Positions 30,137-41,074 of a stretch of 64,000 nt of DNA are shown here, piece after piece. The first letter of the stretch is position 1. Every line of letters begins with the position of its first letter. The translations under genes were made by a program, and so were the position numbers. The stretch is from NCBI RefSeq assembly GCF_000189775.2, contig NC_015555.1:2057001-2121000 (forward strand), in the 5' to 3' direction. This DNA is from Thermoanaerobacterium xylanolyticum LX-11 (GTDB lineage: Bacteria; Bacillota; Thermoanaerobacteria; Thermoanaerobacterales; Thermoanaerobacteraceae). The notes beneath the pieces were generated by a model, which was not told where the DNA came from, ran no database searches, and was given only the letters and a program-made list of their open reading frames with translations.

Positions 30137-31192
30137 TCACACATATGCCAATATTTCCTTTAAAACATCCTGTAGCGGCACTTGAACATCATATAGCTTG
30201 GCTTCAAAAACTGCTTTTGGCATTCCATAAACAACGCATGTCTCTTCAGATTCGATAATGACATGCCCTCCATATTTTTTTACTGATTTACATCCAACAA
30301 GGCCATCATTGCCCATTCCAGTAAGTATAACAGCTAATAAATGCTCTTTATAAATCGGTGCTGCAGAATTTAGCGTAACATCAACTGATGGTTTGTATAA
30401 AATATTATCATCTGAGCTTTCTATAATTTTAAAAACAACTTCATTATCATTTTTTATATGCAAAGTAGTTTGAAATCCTGACGGAGCAATATAAATGTTG
30501 CCAGCCTGTAAAATTTCCCCTTCTTCTGCTTCTTTTACATGAAGTTGGCAGAATGTATCAAATCTTTCAGCTAAAGACTTAGTAAAACCGGGAGGCATGT
30601 GTTGGAGAACAAGTACAGGAACAGGCAAATCTGGTGGAAAATTAGGTAGTATAGATTGCAAAGCGACCGGTCCTCCTGTAGATGTACCTATGATAATTAT
30701 ATTTACTTTTGCCTTTGGTTTATCATTGCTAAGCTCTCTTTTATTAACCATTTCGTCTTTATTAATTTCTGAACATTGTTTTTGTATTTTTTTGCTTTCT
30801 ATTACATTTATCAACTTATTTATAAAATTATCAATAATCTTGTCATCAACATCTTGATTGATTAACTCGCTTTTCAGAAAAAAATCTTCTGCACCTGCTT
30901 CTAACGCTTCTATAGTAGGTTCAGCACCTTCCTCTGTATAATTGCTCAACATTACAATAGGTATATTATACAATTCTTTAATCTTTTTAAGAGCCATAAT
31001 ACCATCCATATTAGGCATTTCAATATCCATAGTTATTATATCCGGATTAAGATTTTGAACTTTTTCTATCGCTTCATATCCGTCTCTGGCGATTCCTACA
31101 ACAGAAAGTTTAGGGTTCTTTTCTATAATTTTAGTAATACACTTTCTCATAAAAGACGAATCATCTACAACTAAAACACCAAACTTTTCCAC
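30137..31192 (-). CDS. cheB: Chemotaxis response regulator methylesterase CheB, 351 aa
   Basis: Removes methyl groups from (or deamidates) chemoreceptors when phosphorylated by CheA. Receiver domain at 1-120 with VDDSS and phospho-acceptor Asp56 (TMDIEMPNMDG); linker with charged residues; catalytic domain about 160-351 with the triad in IIIGTSTGGPVAL (Ser), VLQHMPPGFT (His) and TGMGNDGLVG (Asp). GTG start with AAAGGGATGAT; the gene begins 4 bp after cheR. Last gene of the chemosensory operon. Confidence 0.95.
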   Translation of the reverse strand: MEKFGVLVVDDSSFMRKCITKIIEKNPKLSVVGIARDGYEAIEKVQNLNPDIITMDIEMPNMDGIMALKKIKELYNIPIVMLSNYTEEGAEPTIEALEAGAEDFFLKSELINQDVDDKIIDNFINKLINVIESKKIQKQCSEINKDEMVNKRELSNDKPKAKVNIIIIGTSTGGPVALQSILPNFPPDLPVPVLVLQHMPPGFTKSLAERFDTFCQLHVKEAEEGEILQAGNIYIAPSGFQTTLHIKNDNEVVFKIIESSDDNILYKPSVDVTLNSAAPIYKEHLLAVILTGMGNDGLVGCKSVKKYGGHVIIESEETCVVYGMPKAVFEAKLYDVQVPLQDVLKEILAYV

Positions 31193-31196
31193 TATA

Positions 31197-32009
31197 TCAT
31201 CCCTTTCTTTTATAATAGAAAACAGAAGGCTTATGTATTACTTCAAATCCACTGTGAATACCAGTTATTGACTCAGCATGACCTAATAACAAGTAACCGC
31301 CAGGATTTAAAATTTTGTAAAAATCGTTGATTATTTTTCGAATTGCATGTTCATCAAAATATATTAAAACATTCCTACAAAATATAATATCACATTTTCC
31401 TATTTTCTCTTCAAGATCCTTATCCAAGAGATTTATTCTTTTAAATTCTACCATTTTGGCAATTTCATCTTTAACTCTATAATATTCTCCATGATCTATA
31501 AAAAATTTGTCGTATACATAATTAGGAGTTCTCCTAAACGATAATGAATTTTTCTTATAAAAACCTTTTTCAGCTTTTTCCAATACCTTTTTATTAATGT
31601 CTGTAGCAATAATTTTAACTTCATGGTTTTTTAATAAACCACTGTCTTCAATTAACATACCGATCGTGTACGGCTCCTCACCCGTCGAACAAGCGGCAGA
31701 CCATATGCGCACATTATTGTTTGCAGAATTAATATATTCAGGCAAAATTGAGTTCTTAAATTCTTCTAACAAATTTTCTTCTCTAAAAAAATACGTTTCG
31801 TTCACAGTTATTAATTCTATTAACACATCCAATTCTTCTGGTTCCATTTTGATATATCCAAAATATTCCCAAACAGATAGCCCTAATTCTTTAATCCTTG
31901 TTTCAATTTTTATCTTGAGATTGTTTAAATTATTTTTATAATCAATGCCACAAAAATCGTATATAAAATTAGCCAATTCCCCTAAATAATTCTGTTCATT
32001 TGTTATCAT
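31197..32009 (-). CDS. cheR: Chemoreceptor glutamate methyltransferase CheR, 270 aa
   Basis: S-adenosylmethionine-dependent enzyme methylating receptor glutamates. N-terminal helical domain (1-75), then the methyltransferase core with NETYFFRE, IWSAACSTGEEPYTIGML (SAM site), IIATDINKKVLEKA, and DIIFCRNVLIYFD. No C-terminal receptor-tether-binding extension beyond the beta-subdomain. ATG chosen with AGGGG nine bases upstream rather than the TTG three codons before, which overlaps it. Preceded by a 17-bp hairpin after the receptor gene. Confidence 0.95.
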   Translation of the reverse strand: MITNEQNYLGELANFIYDFCGIDYKNNLNNLKIKIETRIKELGLSVWEYFGYIKMEPEELDVLIELITVNETYFFREENLLEEFKNSILPEYINSANNNVRIWSAACSTGEEPYTIGMLIEDSGLLKNHEVKIIATDINKKVLEKAEKGFYKKNSLSFRRTPNYVYDKFFIDHGEYYRVKDEIAKMVEFKRINLLDKDLEEKIGKCDIIFCRNVLIYFDEHAIRKIINDFYKILNPGGYLLLGHAESITGIHSGFEVIHKPSVFYYKRKG

Positions 32010-32031
32010 ATTTATCAACCCCTAAACAAAA

Positions 32032-32076: not shown

Positions 32077-34488
32077 TCATATTTCAAAGCCTCTTAATGT
32101 ATTTTTTATTTGTTCCACATTACTAAGAAGTTCCTCAGTAGTATCGATAGATTTTTCAACATCCTTGCCATTTAAACTTAATAAAGTGCTAAATTCTTTT
32201 ACAAATGCCGCAACTTGCTTAAATTCTGAGGTTTGTTTTTTTATTAACTCTTCAATTTGTTCTGCTTGTTTATTTATAACATTTGAATTGTTCATTTCTT
32301 CGCCGATATTTGCATTTATTTCTTTTGCAACCGCCGCTATTTGTCTTACTTGCTCTCTTGCATTGTTTACTCCTTGTACTATTTCTTCTACTCCTTTTGC
32401 TTGTTCTTTTGTCGCTTGACTTACCTGCGCTGCTTGATTTGTTATATTTTCTACTGCTATTACTATGTTTTGCCCTTGATTTCTCTGCTCTTTTGTAGCA
32501 GCCGCTATCTGTCTTACTTGTTCTCTCGCATTGTTTACTCCTTGTACTATTTCTTCTACTCCTTTTGCTTGTTCTTTTGTTGCTTGACTTACCTGCGCTG
32601 CCTGGTTTGTTATATTTTCTACTGCTATTACTATGTTTTGCCCTTGATTTCTCTGCTCTTTTGCAGCCGTCGCTATCTGTCTTACTTGTTCTCTTGCATT
32701 GTTTACTCCTTGTACTATTTCCTCTACTCCTTTTGCTTGTTCTTTTGTCGCTTGACTCACCTGCGCTGCTTGGTTTGTTATATTTTCTACTGCTTCTACT
32801 ATGTTTTGCCCTTGATTTCTCTGCTCTTTTGTGGCCACCGCTATCTGTCTTACTTGCTCTCTTGCATTGTTTACTCCTTGTACTATTTCCTCTACTCCTT
32901 TTGCTTGTTCTTTTGTCGCTTGCCTTACCTGCGCTGCCTGGTTTGTTATATTTTCTACTGCTATTACTATGTTTTGCCCTTGATTTCTCTGCTCTTCTGC
33001 GGCTAATGTGACTTCGTTAATCTCATTATTTATTTCTTCTATTCCTTCAACAATTTTTTCTATTACTATACTCATATCATTGCTTAACTCAGTTCCACGC
33101 TTAGCCTTATCTTGCCCTACTGCAATTGCTTTCACTGCTTGTTCCGTCTCTTTTTGAACATTCTTTATTAGAGCAGCTATCTCTTTTGTAGCTGTAGCTG
33201 TTCTTTCAGCAAGTTTTCTAACTTCATCTGCTACTACCGCAAACCCTTTGCCATGTTCACCAGCCCTTGCAGCTTCTATCGCTGCATTTAAAGCTAACAA
33301 ATTGGTCTGTTCTGCAATATCATCAATAACTTCCGTAATACTTCCTATTTTTTCAGAACTTTCTCCTAAATTATTTATTACATTTCCTGTAAGATAAATT
33401 GCATCAGTAATATCTTTAATAGAAGATAATGTTTCTTCTACCGATTTCCTGCCATTTTGTGCTTCAGTCTTTAGCGAATCGCTTAATCTTTTAATATTTT
33501 CAGTACTGTTAGCTACTTGATTGATCGATGCTACCATTTCTTCTATCGCCGCCGATGTTTCTTCTGCTGATGCTGACAAACTTTCTGCGTTTCCTGCTAC
33601 TCCTTTTATCGACTTGCTTATCTGCTCTATCGATGCTGATATCTGCTCTACTGAACTTGCTGTGCTTTCGCTATTGCCTGCTACTTGATTTATTGATGCT
33701 ACCATTTCTTCTATCGCTGCCGATGTTTCTTCTGCTGATGCTGACAAACTTTCTGCGTTCCCTGCTACTCCTTTTATCGACTTGCTTATCTGTTCTATCG
33801 ATGCTGATATCTGCTCTACTGAACTTGCTGTACTTTCGCTATTGCCTGCTACTTGATTTATTGATGCTACCATTTCTTCTATCGCTGCCGATGTTTCTTC
33901 TGCTGATGCTGACAAACTTTCTGCGTTCCCTGCTACTCCTTTTATCGACTTGCTTATCTGCTCTATTGATGCTGATATCTGCTCTACTGAACTTGCTGTG
34001 CTTTCGCTATTGCCTGCTACTTGATTTATTGATGCTACCATTTCTTCTATCGCCGCTGATGTTTCTTCTGCTGATGCTGACAAGCTTTCTGCATTCCCTG
34101 CTACTCCTTTTATCGACTTGCTTATCTGCTCTATCGATGCTGATATCTGCTCTACTGAACTTGCTGTACTTTCGCTATTGCCTGCTACTTGATTAGTAAG
34201 ACTGTATAACTTTTCCAAAGAATTATTAGCCTTATCGACAAACTTAACTAATTGCCCTACACTTTCTTCTACATCATTAATCAATCCAGCTAACTCTTCA
34301 GTACCTATTTTAGTTGATTCTATTGTTGTTGACTGCTCTTTTAATCCACTAAGTATCTTATTGGTTATATCTACAAATTTTCCCAATTTGCTGTCAATAT
34401 CATCTACAGCATAAACTGCTCTCTTTAAATTTTCATGATATGTCGTACCTTTTATCAATTTTTTTGCAACATTTTCCTTAAAACTCAT
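32077..34488 (-). CDS. Soluble giant chemoreceptor with symmetric 4x56-residue repeats in both coiled-coil arms, 803 aa
   Basis: Methyl-accepting chemotaxis protein with no membrane segment and no recognisable ligand domain. Residues 1-100 are helical. Residues 101-324 are four 56-residue repeats ([11 protein letters not shown]... ...EEMVASINQ), identical in protein sequence. Residues 325-500 are a single-copy core with the universal hairpin tip ([23 protein letters not shown], tip Glu at about 411). Residues 501-724 are four more 56-residue repeats of a different sequence (RNQGQNIV... ...REQVRQIA), differing at a few positions. Residues 725-803 are a helical tail. The core has 86 residues before and 89 after the tip, so the two arrays are in register across the antiparallel hairpin. 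ATG with GAGGAGG upstream. Part of the cheWA-mcp-cheRB operon. Family certain; length exceptional. Confidence 0.95.
32317..32988 (-). repeat. Four 168-bp tandem repeats encoding the C-terminal receptor arm
   Basis: Four in-frame 168-bp units (residues 501-724 of the receptor), each two 28-residue halves (eight heptads). Copies differ at a few amino acids ([32 protein letters not shown]) and several silent sites, so they are older or less homogenised than the other array. Confidence 0.95.
33517..34188 (-). repeat. Four 168-bp tandem repeats encoding the N-terminal receptor arm
   Basis: Four in-frame 168-bp units (residues 101-324), identical at protein level and separated only by scattered silent changes such as gcc/gct in Ala codons. 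This pattern indicates recent duplication or ongoing gene conversion. Each unit is eight heptads long, the same as the C-terminal arm units, though unrelated in sequence. Confidence 0.95.
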
Positions 34489-34537: not shown

Positions 34538-36562
34538 TCACAGATTTTTTTTGGACGCAGTTGTTTTCACAATTCCAGCAACATCCAAAATACATGCTAC
34601 ATTTCCATCACCTAAAATAGTTGCTCCAGAAAAAATATCAAGTTTTCCTATGTATGAGCTAAAATTTTTAACTACAATTTCTTGATTGCCAATAAGTTCA
34701 TCAACGACAAGTCCAAATCTTTTTTCGGCAATACCTAAAATTACGATGATAATATTTTTATTTTTTCTCTTTCTAGGTACTCTAAAATAATCATGCAGCC
34801 AAATTAGTGAAATTGTTCTTTCTCTAATAATTACAACATCTTGCTTTTTAACTTTTTTTATTTCTTTTTCATTTAACCGTACAATCTCTATTACATTGCT
34901 TACTGGAATAGCATATATTTCATTATTTATTCGTATTAAAAGTCCATTCAAAATAGCCAACGTCAATGGAAGTTTTATTATAAACTTTGTACCTTCCCAT
35001 TCTTTTGTTTCAACTTCTATAACTCCATTAAGTTTATTAATATTATTGCGAACAATATCCATCCCTACTCCACGCCCAGAAATGTCACTGACACTTTGAG
35101 ATGTAGAAAATCCAGGTTTAAAAATTAGCTCTAAAATTTCTTTTTCATTTAATAAGTCTGCATCCTGACGTGAAATTATTCCCTTTTTTAATGCGACTTC
35201 TTTAACCTTATTCAAATTAATTCCACGTCCATCATCTTGAACTGTTAGAATAAACTGATTTTCTTGATGATATGCATTGACTCTTATAGTGCCCTTAGGA
35301 CTTTTACCTGCTTTTAAGCGCTCATCAGGTGTTTCTATTCCGTGATCAGCAGCATTTCTGATTAGATGTACTAATGGATCTGCTAAATCTTCAATTATAG
35401 TTTTATCTAATTCTGTATCTTCACCTTCTATAACTAACTCAATTTCTTTATTAAGAGAATTTGATAAATCTCTTACTAAACGTGGTATTCTGCTAAATAA
35501 TTGTTTAATAGGCAGCATGCGAACTTTTAATACTAATTCTTGAAGCTCATTTGTTATCCTTGATATCTGATTTGAAATTTCTTCTAAATCCTCAAAAGAA
35601 TTATCTGAATTGTATCGTTCATGCAATGAACTAACAATTTGAGTAATTCTTGATTTCTCAATTACAAGTTCGCCAACCATCTCCATCATTTTTTCTAATC
35701 TGCCTATGTCCACTCTAACTGTTTGATTTGCCTTATTTTTTGTCTCATCTGGGGTTTGTCCTTCATAAACATTAGATTTTGTCACGTTGTTGACATTATC
35801 TAATTGGCTATTTATTAAACTTAAATCAAACAAATCTACATTAAAGCTTTCAATCTCCAACATTCTATCTAAAACTCTAACTTTTAATTCTTCTTTATCA
35901 AATTCAGTAATCAACAAATACGAAATATTTTCTACATCAATATTATCATTCACATCTGTCATATCAGGTTCACTTTTAATAACAGTACCCAATTGATTTA
36001 AAAAATTTAAAATCAAAAAAGCACGTATAGCTTTCATAGCGCAATCTTTTTTTAATTTCACTTCACATACAAACACATTTAAACCAGATGCTGCAGCTTG
36101 TTGTGCTTGAATTTGTTGTTCTAAATCGAGTTTAAATTCTTTATTTGTTTCTGAATTCATATTTTCCTTCAATAATTGATCGTCTGACATGTATTTGTGC
36201 AACTCCGATAATATTAAAGTTATATCAGTTTTCATTTCTCCATTTGAAGAAAATTCTTCTTTTAGACTTTTCAACACATCTAAACATCTAAAAAGAACAT
36301 CTATCACTGGCTTTGCTACTTTAATGTTACCGCTTCGTATCTTGTCTAACACATCTTCCATTTCGTGGGTCAAAATTTTCATTTTTTCAAATCCCATTGC
36401 TGCAGACGATCCTTTTAGTGTATGTGCTACCCTAAATAATGTTTTTATTATTTCATCGTCATTTGCATTTTGTTCTAGCTTAAGAATATTTTCTTCAAAA
36501 AGTTGCAGTTGCTCATCAACTTCGTCAAGAAAAGCTCTGATGAATTCCGGAGTATCATACAA
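34538..36562 (-). CDS. cheA: Chemotaxis histidine kinase CheA, ~674 aa
   Basis: Kinase that phosphorylates response regulators under receptor control. Order: Hpt/P1 domain with phospho-His47 (RVAHTLKGSSAAMGF); P2-like region (about 155-255); P3 dimerisation helices (RVDIGRLEKMMEMVGELVIEKSR); HATPase with HLIRNAADHGIE, DDGRGIN and SGRGVGMDIVRNNI; and a CheW-like P5 domain at the C-terminus. The TTG with GGAGGTG six bases upstream is chosen; the longest frame's ATG lies 33 bp earlier inside the end of cheW. 49 bp before the receptor gene. Confidence 0.94.
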   Translation of the reverse strand: MYDTPEFIRAFLDEVDEQLQLFEENILKLEQNANDDEIIKTLFRVAHTLKGSSAAMGFEKMKILTHEMEDVLDKIRSGNIKVAKPVIDVLFRCLDVLKSLKEEFSSNGEMKTDITLILSELHKYMSDDQLLKENMNSETNKEFKLDLEQQIQAQQAAASGLNVFVCEVKLKKDCAMKAIRAFLILNFLNQLGTVIKSEPDMTDVNDNIDVENISYLLITEFDKEELKVRVLDRMLEIESFNVDLFDLSLINSQLDNVNNVTKSNVYEGQTPDETKNKANQTVRVDIGRLEKMMEMVGELVIEKSRITQIVSSLHERYNSDNSFEDLEEISNQISRITNELQELVLKVRMLPIKQLFSRIPRLVRDLSNSLNKEIELVIEGEDTELDKTIIEDLADPLVHLIRNAADHGIETPDERLKAGKSPKGTIRVNAYHQENQFILTVQDDGRGINLNKVKEVALKKGIISRQDADLLNEKEILELIFKPGFSTSQSVSDISGRGVGMDIVRNNINKLNGVIEVETKEWEGTKFIIKLPLTLAILNGLLIRINNEIYAIPVSNVIEIVRLNEKEIKKVKKQDVVIIRERTISLIWLHDYFRVPRKRKNKNIIIVILGIAEKRFGLVVDELIGNQEIVVKNFSSYIGKLDIFSGATILGDGNVACILDVAGIVKTTASKKNL

Positions 36563-36581
36563 TTTATACACCTCCTGCCTG

Positions 36582-37016
36582 TCAATGCTCCGCATTTAAC
36601 AATTTATCGATTTTCATTATTGCTATAACTTCGCCATCTTGTGTAATTCCTAACCCTTCAAAATAATTTCCACTTATTTCGTCTACTGTTTCAGGAGTCG
36701 GTTGAATATCGGAAAACTTTGTGACCTGAATTACTCTATCAACGATTGTGCCAACTAATTCGTCATCAAATCTTAATATTACGATACGTGTTGATTTAGT
36801 ATCAGAATAATCTTCAAGTCCCAATATTCGATGTACATTAATGACTGGTACAATTTTTCCACGCAAATTTATAATACCTTCTAAATATGCTTTGCTATTA
36901 TGCAAATAAGTGATTTTTTTAAATCGGATAATTTCATACACTTCATTTATCTTTATTGCATATTTTTCTCCGCACAATTCACATACAACATATTGGTAAT
37001 CTAATAATTCATTCAA
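36582..37016 (-). CDS. cheW: Chemotaxis coupling protein CheW, 144 aa
   Basis: Two SH3-like subdomains linking CheA to receptors: QYVVCELCGEKYAIKINEVYEIIRF, YLEGIINLRGKIVPVINVHRILGL and FDDELVGTIVDRVIQVTKF are the family's marks. TTG start with GGAGGG eight bases upstream. Its last codons run into the ribosome site of cheA. Confidence 0.94.
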   Translation of the reverse strand: MNELLDYQYVVCELCGEKYAIKINEVYEIIRFKKITYLHNSKAYLEGIINLRGKIVPVINVHRILGLEDYSDTKSTRIVILRFDDELVGTIVDRVIQVTKFSDIQPTPETVDEISGNYFEGLGITQDGEVIAIMKIDKLLNAEH

Positions 37017-37068: not shown

Positions 37069-38106
37069 CTAACTTTTAATATCTCTATAAATTTTGCTAA
37101 AAAGTTCTGCTATGTATGGATCAAATTGAGTTCCTGCATTCTTTTTTATCTCTAAAATTGCCTGGTCAATTTTTAGTGCTTTTCTATATATGCGGTCATT
37201 TGTCATAGCATCAAAGGCATCTGCAACTGACAAAATACGGCAAAACAATGGGATCTTTTCTCCTTTCAACCCATGAGGATATCCATTTCCATCCCATCTC
37301 TCATGATGGTACAATATGTATTTTGCTATTGTCTTTAACTCTGGTATATTTGAAATAATTTCATATCCTATTTCTGGATGTTTCTTTATTTCGGTCCAAT
37401 CACTATCTGTCAACGGTTCACGCTTTTTAAGAACACTTTCGCTTATGCCTATTTTGCCTATATCGTGTAATATTGCCAAAAGAGCTAACTCATTAAGTTC
37501 TTTCATTGAAAGGTTCATTTCCTTTCCAATAATAAGACAATGGTCTTTTAGCCTCTTAGCGTGTTCCTCAGTTTCCCAACTTTTAAAATGTAATGTGGCA
37601 AGAATTGCATTGACAACAGTACTTCGATGACTCGTGTTCATTACAAACTTTTGTCTATTCATTTCTTCTTCTGCATCTTTTATTGCTTGAATAATTGAAT
37701 TCTCAGAACTACGCTTTGAAGATATTCCAACAGCTACACTCAACTGTTCATCTTTTTTGATTAACTTTATTTTAGTTGAAACAATTGTTTCAATTTTTTT
37801 TGCTGCATTTTCCATGTTGCTGTCATACATGAGTACTAAAAATTCATCTTCTCCCCATCTTGCAATAATATCATTATTTCCCAAACCATGTTTCAACTCA
37901 TTTGCAAGACTTCTTAAAAGCTTATCACCTTCTCTATACCCAAATGTATCATTAATCATTTTAATGCCATTAATATCTAGCATAACTACTGCTATTGAAG
38001 TGTTTTTAAAATTATCTAATTCGCTTAGCTTTTCTTCAACATATTTTCTGGTGTAAAGGCCCGTTAATGGATCATATATATCTATTTCCATATTTTTTGA
38101 ATCCAT
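37069..38106 (-). CDS. GGDEF plus HD-GYP protein (c-di-GMP synthesis/degradation), 345 aa
   Basis: Residues ~8-165 are a GGDEF domain (DPLTGLYTRKYVEEKL; DINGIKMINDTFGYREGDKLL; active-site motif as WGEDEF, with Glu in the second position). Residues ~175-345 are an HD-GYP phosphodiesterase with HDIGKIGI, HPEIGYEI, YHHERWDGNGYPHGLKGEKIP and DAFDAMTNDR, all ligands intact. No receiver, PAS or membrane segment is present. The HD-GYP half is predicted active; cyclase activity is uncertain because of GEDEF. ATG lies ten bases after GGAGGTG. It is the first gene of the chemosensory operon and lies downstream of a c-di-GMP riboswitch on the same strand. Confidence 0.9.
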   Translation of the reverse strand: MDSKNMEIDIYDPLTGLYTRKYVEEKLSELDNFKNTSIAVVMLDINGIKMINDTFGYREGDKLLRSLANELKHGLGNNDIIARWGEDEFLVLMYDSNMENAAKKIETIVSTKIKLIKKDEQLSVAVGISSKRSSENSIIQAIKDAEEEMNRQKFVMNTSHRSTVVNAILATLHFKSWETEEHAKRLKDHCLIIGKEMNLSMKELNELALLAILHDIGKIGISESVLKKREPLTDSDWTEIKKHPEIGYEIISNIPELKTIAKYILYHHERWDGNGYPHGLKGEKIPLFCRILSVADAFDAMTNDRIYRKALKIDQAILEIKKNAGTQFDPYIAELFSKIYRDIKS

Positions 38107-38723: not shown

Positions 38724-39957
38724 GTGCCCAGTACTTTATTCGTCGGTATAGACGTAAGCAGTCAATCTAATTCTGTTTTCTTTATTGATCAAGATGGCAA
38801 TAACCTCATTAAGAAACCTTTTTCGGTTTCTAATGATATCCCAGGTGCTTTGTATCATCTCTGAGGTGATTTCTCATGCTAACGCTATTAATGCTTCCTG
38901 TGTCAAAATTGGTATGGAAGCCACTTCTCATTATGCATGGCACCTCCATCTTCACCTGGCTTCTTCTCCTGACCTGGCACCTTTTAACCCTAAATTCTTT
39001 GTTATGAATCCAGGTGTCGTCAAGGGTTTTAAAAAGGCTTATACCTATTTGCCTAAAACTGACGATTTTGATGCCAGAATCATTGCTGATTGTGTCAGAT
39101 TCGGTAGGGTAAACCCTACTCCTATGCCTGACTTTAGGTATGCTGCGCTACAGCGCCTTACTCGTTTTAGATACCATCTGGTACAAACTATATCCAGTGA
39201 AAAGAGCAGAGCTTTGAACCTCCTTTATCTCAAGTTCTCTTCATACAAGGAAGACTGTCCTTTTAGCGACGTCTTTGGCTCAGCATCTACTTCTGTTTTT
39301 GATTCTTTTACTCCTGATGAGATCGCTGTTATGCCTGTGGAGGAACTTGTAGATTTTGTCTTGAGTCATGGCAACAATAGATTGAAAAATCCCGAAGAAA
39401 TTGCTAAGACACTTAAGTCTGCTGCTAATAGGGCATATCGTCTTAATCCTTACATGTGCGATACTGTTAGCATGACTTTGACCATGACTCTTGAAAATAT
39501 AAGATTTCTTGAGTCACAACTTAAAAAACTTGACAAAGAAATCTCTAAACAGCTTAATGGCTTTCACCAAACTCTGACTACTATTCCAGGTTTCGGTAAT
39601 GTATTAGCCGCAGGCCTTGTGGCTGAGATTGGCGATGTTAAGCGGTTTAAAAATGAATGCGCTGTAGCTAAATTTGCAGGCCTCGTGTGGAATAAATATC
39701 AATCTGGCAACTTTAGTGCTGAAGATACCTCTTTAGCTAAGTGCGGTAACCAGTATTTAAGGTACTATCTTGTAGAAGCAGCTAATTGCGTAAGGATACA
39801 CGCAAAAGAATATGCTGATTTCTACTGCAAGAAGTACAATGAGGTTACAAAACACCAGCATAAAAGAGCCCTCGTCTTAACGGCACGTAAGCTTGTAAGA
39901 CTGGTCTTTGCTATGCTGAGTAAAGGCCAAATCTACCAACCAGGAGGTAATGGATAG
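38724..39957 (+). pseudogene. IS110-family transposase with a +1 frameshift
   Basis: DEDD/RuvC-like transposase. The GTG at 38724 follows AGGAGG by seven bases and reads MPSTLFVGIDVSSQSN (first Asp) up to PGALYHL, then hits TGA at 38862-38864. The homologous continuation SEVISHANAIN...GMEATSHYAWHL begins in the next frame at the same place and runs to 39957. It contains the rest of the catalytic set (GMEAT, DDFDARIIAD) and the Tnp_IS116-type C-terminal domain (TIPGFGNVLAAGLVAEIGD; the Ser-containing region follows). Together ~411 residues, a normal length. One extra base near CATCTCTGAGG explains the break. Probably inactive unless it is a sequencing error. Confidence 0.85.
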
Positions 39958-40513: not shown

Positions 40514-41074
40514 ATGACAGTTGAACCTATACGAGATAAAGTTAAAATAAAGCAAATGTATTATTATTTACAAGGTAAAGATCCTAAATACGGTTTGCTT
40601 TTTAAATTTGGCTTAAATACTGGCTTAAGGATTAGTGATATTTTACCTATAAAGGTCAATGACATTTATACAAGCAATTTTAATTTTCGTGAATATCTTA
40701 CTATTAAAGAGAAAAAAACTGAAAAAGAGAAAAAAATTAAAATTAATGAATCATTAAAAAAGGAAATTGATAAATACATAAAATTAAGATGCTTAAAATA
40801 TGATGATTATTTATTTCCAAGCAATAAAGGCGGACATATAGGAAGAATTCAAAGTTACAGAATTTTAAAAGAAGCCGCTGAAATTGTTGGTGTCGAAAAT
40901 TTTGGTACTCATAGTTTGAGAAAAACTTGGGGTTATTGGAGTTATAAAACATCGCGTTATAATATAGGCTTAATAATGGATACTTTTAATCATAGTTCCC
41001 AAAAAATCACTTTAAGATATATCGGCGTAAATCAAGAACAGAAAGATGAATTATATACATTGGTTCAATTTTAA
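40514..41074 (+). CDS. Single-domain tyrosine recombinase (FimB/FimE-size), 186 aa
   Basis: Catalytic domain of a tyrosine recombinase without the usual N-terminal core-binding domain. Visible residues: Arg in GLNTGLRISDIL, Lys in the EKKTEKEKKI hairpin, H-x-x-R in THSLRKTWG, a His in DTFNHSSQ, and the nucleophile Tyr in LRYIG. The size and layout are like FimB/FimE and clostridial inverting recombinases. ATG with AGGAGG upstream. It lies alone between a perfect pair of 24-bp inverted sites, 159 bp and 103 bp from them. Confidence 0.88.
   Translation: MTVEPIRDKVKIKQMYYYLQGKDPKYGLLFKFGLNTGLRISDILPIKVNDIYTSNFNFREYLTIKEKKTEKEKKIKINESLKKEIDKYIKLRCLKYDDYLFPSNKGGHIGRIQSYRILKEAAEIVGVENFGTHSLRKTWGYWSYKTSRYNIGLIMDTFNHSSQKITLRYIGVNQEQKDELYTLVQF

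Follow-up and report, generated by a model that had tools for sequence, protein, structure and literature searches.

Results

A soluble chemoreceptor with both arms lengthened by 56-residue repeats

The minus strand of the window, a 64,000-nucleotide stretch of Thermoanaerobacterium xylanolyticum LX-11 (NC_015555.1, positions 2,057,001 to 2,121,000), encodes an 803-residue soluble bacterial chemoreceptor whose two coiled-coil arms are symmetrically lengthened by 56-residue repeats (Table 1). The protein belongs to the methyl-accepting chemotaxis proteins (MCPs) by its Pfam signalling domain and by the conserved hairpin tip at Glu411, and a single heptad phase runs through both arms, which span 410 (N) and 392 (C) residues and so have the near-equal lengths of an MCP hairpin. 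Proline, tryptophan and cysteine are absent from the entire chain. A Kyte-Doolittle search for a membrane segment with a 19-residue window reached a maximum of 0.75 and found none, which places the protein among the cytoplasmic receptors. The first-pass annotation of this DNA had proposed both the single register and the lack of a membrane domain, and both proposals agree with these measurements.

Tandem Repeats Finder (TRF) recovered two 168-bp arrays with 97% and 93% matches and scores of 1282 (N) and 1206 (C). The four N-array units (residues 101-324) are identical to one another in amino acids, and the four C-array units (residues ~500-723) are 93-96% identical to each other. The N array thus stands exactly as first described, from the sequence and from TRF alike; the C array, originally placed at residues 501-724, is equally real, with boundaries that can be drawn just as well at 500-723. 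Each unit is itself composed of two diverged 28-residue halves (14/28 identical between the halves of the N unit). When N and C units were compared in all circular phases, the best identity was 11/56 against 10.2 in shuffled sequences, in accord with the earlier description of two arrays unrelated in sequence and equal in unit length and copy number; a shared origin of the N and C units was considered and dropped, the identity being no better than that of shuffles. Glu411 lies 87 residues past the end of the N array and 89-90 residues ahead of the start of the C array, and because these distances are nearly equal, the two arrays would lie side by side in an antiparallel hairpin.

Table 1 Features of the extended receptor and its gene neighbourhood (window coordinates).
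Feature	Position	Strand	Evidence
cheB, methylesterase with receiver domain	30137..31192	-	PF01339 1.7e-60, PF00072
cheR, methyltransferase	31197..32018	-	PF01739 7.3e-58
mcp, 803-residue soluble methyl-accepting chemotaxis protein with extended arms	32077..34488	-	ORF; PF00015 5.7e-65; no membrane segment
C-terminal distal region, residues 725-803	32080..32316	-	Sequence; AlphaFold2 helix break 770-774
C-arm array, residues 501-724 (equally 500-723), 4 x 56 residues	32317..32988	-	TRF, repeat analysis
Signalling core with hairpin tip, residues 325-500	32989..33516	-	PF00015; homology to 2ch7
Hairpin-tip Glu411	33256..33258	-	Position in conserved tip sequence
N-arm array, residues 101-324, 4 x 56 residues, 3 methylation-type motifs per unit	33517..34188	-	TRF, repeat and motif analysis
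N-terminal distal region, residues 1-100, family-specific, possible distal cap	34189..34488	-	Kept across relatives; AlphaFold2 helix break 51-55, modest confidence
cheA of the second chemosensory system	34538..36595	-	Hpt, P2, H-kinase_dim, HATPase_c and CheW domains; co-occurs with the long receptor
cheW	36582..37016	-	PF01584 1.3e-33
GGDEF and HD-domain protein, upstream, same orientation	37069..38106	-	PF00990, PF13487

The repeats are homogenised within species and conserved between them

The LX-11 genome is assembled as a single contig of 2.53 Mb, and a second complete genome of Thermoanaerobacterium (G001) encodes a receptor of the same 803-residue layout with 4 + 4 units, even though its N terminus and first unit are only 84% identical to the LX-11 protein. 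Units within one species differ mostly by 1-10 nt in both arrays (G001 has one diverged end unit, which differs by up to 15), whereas units of the two species are 14-28 nt apart, again in both arrays. Distances within a species are therefore smaller than those between species, as expected if both arrays have been homogenised within each species while the 4:4 arrangement was kept. All 10 variable sites among the LX-11 N units fall at third codon positions, and between species the N array shows a pN of 0.002 against a pS of 0.459. Judged from such substitution patterns, the repeat unit is under strong purifying selection.

Arm lengths match in every intact relative

We collected relatives by running a profile of the N-terminal region on 398 genomes of the phylum, followed by the classes of its matches, which added three intact members from distant Bacillota: the receptors of G329 (1029 residues, 6 N and 6 C units), G498 (1030 residues, 6 N and 6 C units) and G366 (1253 residues, 8 N and 8 C units). 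The evidence base for matched arms thus consists of five intact genes from three lineages, with N:C unit counts of 4:4, 4:4, 6:6, 6:6 and 8:8. Their arms span 392-635 residues, with the N arm longer than the C arm by 18, 18, 16, 15 and 18 residues. A gapless alignment of 511 columns, covering three units, the core and three units, accommodates all five proteins, four of which have no proline. In the CheR and CheB trees, the 4:4, 8:8 and 6:6 states fall on separate branches. Matches from Acidobacteriota and spirochaetes were dropped as relatives, having no 56-residue arrays in both arms, and searches of plasmids for related sequence gave no match.

The sole mismatch is in G011, a member of the same family in a different genus (L035, 4289-7596), where 5 N and 6 C units give an arm difference of -39. 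This receptor gene has an in-frame TAA within the core, and a transposase ORF stands between it and cheR; because of the in-frame stop and the adjacent transposase, the gene is probably no longer under selection. Were its TAA to prove a sequencing error, G011 would stand as a genuine exception to matched arms. Copy numbers that vary independently between the arms, which the first-pass annotation had named as evidence against its reading, were accordingly seen once, and in a gene with these defects.

That annotation had also supposed that when one arm lengthens the other does so to match, and the equal counts in all five intact genes, with an arm difference held at 15-18 residues, uphold this as an outcome. 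Its further suggestion, that one duplication answers another, fares less well: two pairs of N units in G366 are identical at every base, and the C array holds no equally recent event. Since this recent exchange in the N array has no C-array partner, we prefer selection for equal arms to paired duplication, and the sequence data fit a history in which equal arms are kept by selection on the outcome. Similarity matrices of facing units correlate in G498 (p 0.004), in G329 (p 0.035) and in G366 (p 0.056); G329 and G498 are not independent, and diverged end units may drive the signal.

Several assemblies were left out of the copy-number comparison: G003, G004 and G005, whose arrays are cut by contig ends, G308, which has assembly gaps within its repeats, and G349, whose receptor is cut by a contig end. 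In the fragmented assembly of G003 (T. saccharolyticum NTOU1; L032), two N units are all that is visible and the cheA frame is split; the low N count is either real or a collapsed repeat. G308 (L123) encodes another long MCP, the repeat region of which consists of runs of N at two places, and G349 (L122, 2-7293) a more distant MCP with ~5 units of 56 residues on the C side.

Repeated DNA is prone to misassembly, and the arrays are indeed broken in several fragmented relatives, as expected of repeats in short-read assemblies. We nevertheless find it scarcely credible that the LX-11 arrays are an artefact: the first-pass annotation had held that fewer or unequal repeats would betray one, and we found 4 + 4 units in an independent complete genome in a diverged gene, different synonymous substitutions carried by the individual copies, and equal arrays even in relatives whose units have strongly diverged. 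Real repeats might still expand and contract freely by neutral slippage, their equal counts reflecting coincidence or shared ancestry. Exchange is clearly active, the repeats being homogenised within species, and the independent lineages are few. Against this, the matched states are three and sit on separate branches with a constant arm difference, the units are under purifying selection, and the only mismatch occurs in the broken G011 gene, and we consider slippage an improbable source of the equality.

The duplicated block carries methylation-type motifs

We counted methylation-type motifs in the form [ASTG][ASTG]xx[EQ][EQ]xx[ASTG][ASTG], which was our own choice, and found three in each N unit, 12 in all, against 0.47 in shuffled sequences. 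In the N arm the Glu/Gln pair of every motif, at residues 113/114, 141/142 and 148/149 in the first unit and every 56 residues from there, occupies heptad positions b and c, which are exposed. Each of the other intact relatives carries 10-13 motifs over its full length; among the other LX-11 receptors counted there are 1-4, and 7 in a two-tipped cytoplasmic receptor. In G366 and G329 the units have diverged, the strict motif is missing from some of them and it begins further from the tip. Behind the long-array receptor of G349 come three consecutive CheR-family ORFs and, after them, CheB and a CheA-like ORF. Measured from the tip, the inner array ends fall at about the position of the methylation sites of E. 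coli receptors. These sites are residues 297, 304, 311 and 493 in Tsr (PMC1079850). On account of the motif count, the b/c placement, the E. coli-like tip distance and the CheR ORFs of G349, the duplicated block probably belongs to the adaptation region, in which case lengthening would multiply adaptation sites.

A simpler reading takes the arrays as inert spacers that set rod length, for example the gap between two CheA/CheW layers, with motifs that are merely inherited. We give it appreciable, if less than even, weight. Paired heptads are the way in which MCPs are known to vary in length, the two baseplates of cytoplasmic arrays are separated by 30-35 nm (PMC3964821), and some of the diverged G366 and G329 units do without the strict motif. 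A spacer, however, does not call for a motif count so far above shuffles and always at b/c, for N units identical in amino acids with a pN of 0.002 between species, which is stricter than a plain spacer needs, or for the three CheR ORFs beside the G349 receptor. Alternatively, the protein could be a peripheral membrane receptor, its N-terminal ~15 residues folding into an amphipathic helix by which the distal end is held at the membrane, with the tip array deep in the cell. Across the family the chain begins with basic, partly hydrophobic residues, and the N-terminal window tops a combined moment-and-charge score in G000; the hydrophobic moments are modest (0.20-0.32), however, other windows equal or exceed it in relatives, and no membrane segment was found. 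Such anchoring seems unlikely to us, and an N-terminal membrane helix was dropped as a feature because its signal was weak.

Rod length and structure prediction

If straight, the arrays and core would form a rod of ~46 nm at 0.15 nm per residue, and the full arms one of at most ~60 nm. AlphaFold2 modelled the full protein as largely helical, the chain turning at the tip, with confidence that was good near the tip, moderate at the distal ends and low in the arrays, and a 510-residue fragment of a relative was modelled with confidence only near the tip; arm pairing was not readable from either model. Beyond the arrays, the full model breaks its helices at residues 51-55 and 770-774, at the same level on both arms, and these breaks may conceivably mark a small distal cap.

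The receptor probably belongs to a second chemosensory system

On the minus strand, the receptor gene lies in the order GGDEF-HD, cheW, cheA, mcp, cheR, cheB, which associates it directly with CheA, CheW, CheR and CheB. The CheA of this cluster is ~42% identical to the other CheA of the genome, and within the family sample its close homologues occur in exactly the six long-receptor genomes; a close homologue was sought in G329 and G498 and none was found. Homologues of cheR and cheB adjoin the receptor gene in all six loci readable across the region (with the transposase between in G011), and G011 and G366 also have a CheY with the cluster. Only some Thermoanaerobacterium have the GGDEF-HD gene there: it is by the cluster in G000, G003, G004 and G005 and absent from the fetched loci of G001, G011 and G366; it was dropped as a fixed output of the system, not being conserved.

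The C arms of three other receptors of the LX-11 genome could be measured and have 155-166 residues. Receptors of unequal length segregate into separate arrays (PMC6759762), and for this reason the long receptor should form an array of its own, apart from the shorter receptors. The same genome (L006/L008, C1 ~40.6-42 kb) also codes for an MCP-like protein of 645 residues whose single chain holds two signalling tips; a protein of repeated CheW-like sequence adjoins it.

An IS110-type transposase gene (38785-39957) lies just upstream of the GGDEF-HD gene, and a tyrosine-recombinase gene (40514-41074) is near the che cluster. Homologues or fragments of the recombinase occur near the same cluster in G001, G003, G005 and G366 (77% identity in G366, which is of another class), and a tyrosine recombinase near the clusters may hint at transfer.

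Discussion

A proposed symmetrically extended hairpin

We think it likely that this soluble MCP serves a dedicated second system, its hairpin lengthened symmetrically by 8-heptad blocks, with equal arms selected and probably with multiplied adaptation sites, and that it works in its own CheA/CheW array. The repetition of 56-residue (8-heptad) blocks in each arm would lengthen the antiparallel coiled-coil hairpin symmetrically, each N-arm block facing one C-arm block; because every N block would face a C block, the arrays must be equal for the register to hold to the distal end. Selection would hold the copy numbers equal while exchange homogenises the units. Additional N blocks would offer more putative adaptation sites to the adjacent CheR and CheB, together with a longer rod, and the receptor would assemble with CheA/CheW into an array separate from the cell's shorter receptors. 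Going further, the number of paired units (4, 6 or 8) could be an evolutionary dial for rod length and methylation-site number, with unequal arms rejected. We hold this extension to be doubtful; were it true, receptor reach and adaptation range would change in whole paired modules.

The rule that the arms lengthen together can be examined in this family as a natural experiment, with matched 4:4, 6:6 and 8:8 states and one mismatched, broken gene. The family takes a model signalling protein to lengths well past the named classes and opens to test whether such arrays exist in cells and whether signal and adaptation travel through rods of ~50-90 nm.

Comparison with known receptors

Soluble chemoreceptors are common, and a few rare receptors are stated to exceed 32 paired heptads (PMC6628036), so that the initial remark that no receptor like this had been described was too strong. 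Our literature search found no description of paired 56-residue arrays, much of the subscription literature being outside its reach. The cytoplasmic arrays of Rhodobacter sphaeroides and Vibrio cholerae, with baseplates ~30-35 nm apart (PMC3964821), are likewise built of soluble receptors without a membrane segment, but no long-repeat arrays are described there, and the LX-11 receptor would need a much wider spacing if sandwiched in the same way. The closest solved relative, a soluble MCP of Thermotoga maritima (PDB 2ch7), matches LX-11 residues 268-568/569, which comprise the core flanked by about one unit in either arm, and its solved chain of 309 residues is without the remaining units. The G329, G498 and G366 receptors share with LX-11 the N-terminal family, the 56-residue spacing, the constant arm difference and the adjacent cheR and cheB, and differ in having 6:6, 6:6 and 8:8 units that are more diverged and, in G329 and G498, in that no close counterpart of the second-system CheA was found.

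Named MCP length classes extend from 24H to 64H (MiST 3.0, PMC6943060). The LX-11 receptor shares with them the PF00015 core, the hairpin tip and two coiled-coil arms equal in heptads, and differs in being built of tandem 56-residue units. From array to array it counts ~89 heptads, with ~121 in G329 and ~153 in G366, and at ~89 against 64 in the longest named class it falls outside all of them by heptad count. The receptor thus belongs to the MCP family, where it is a new and extreme variant beyond the named length classes.
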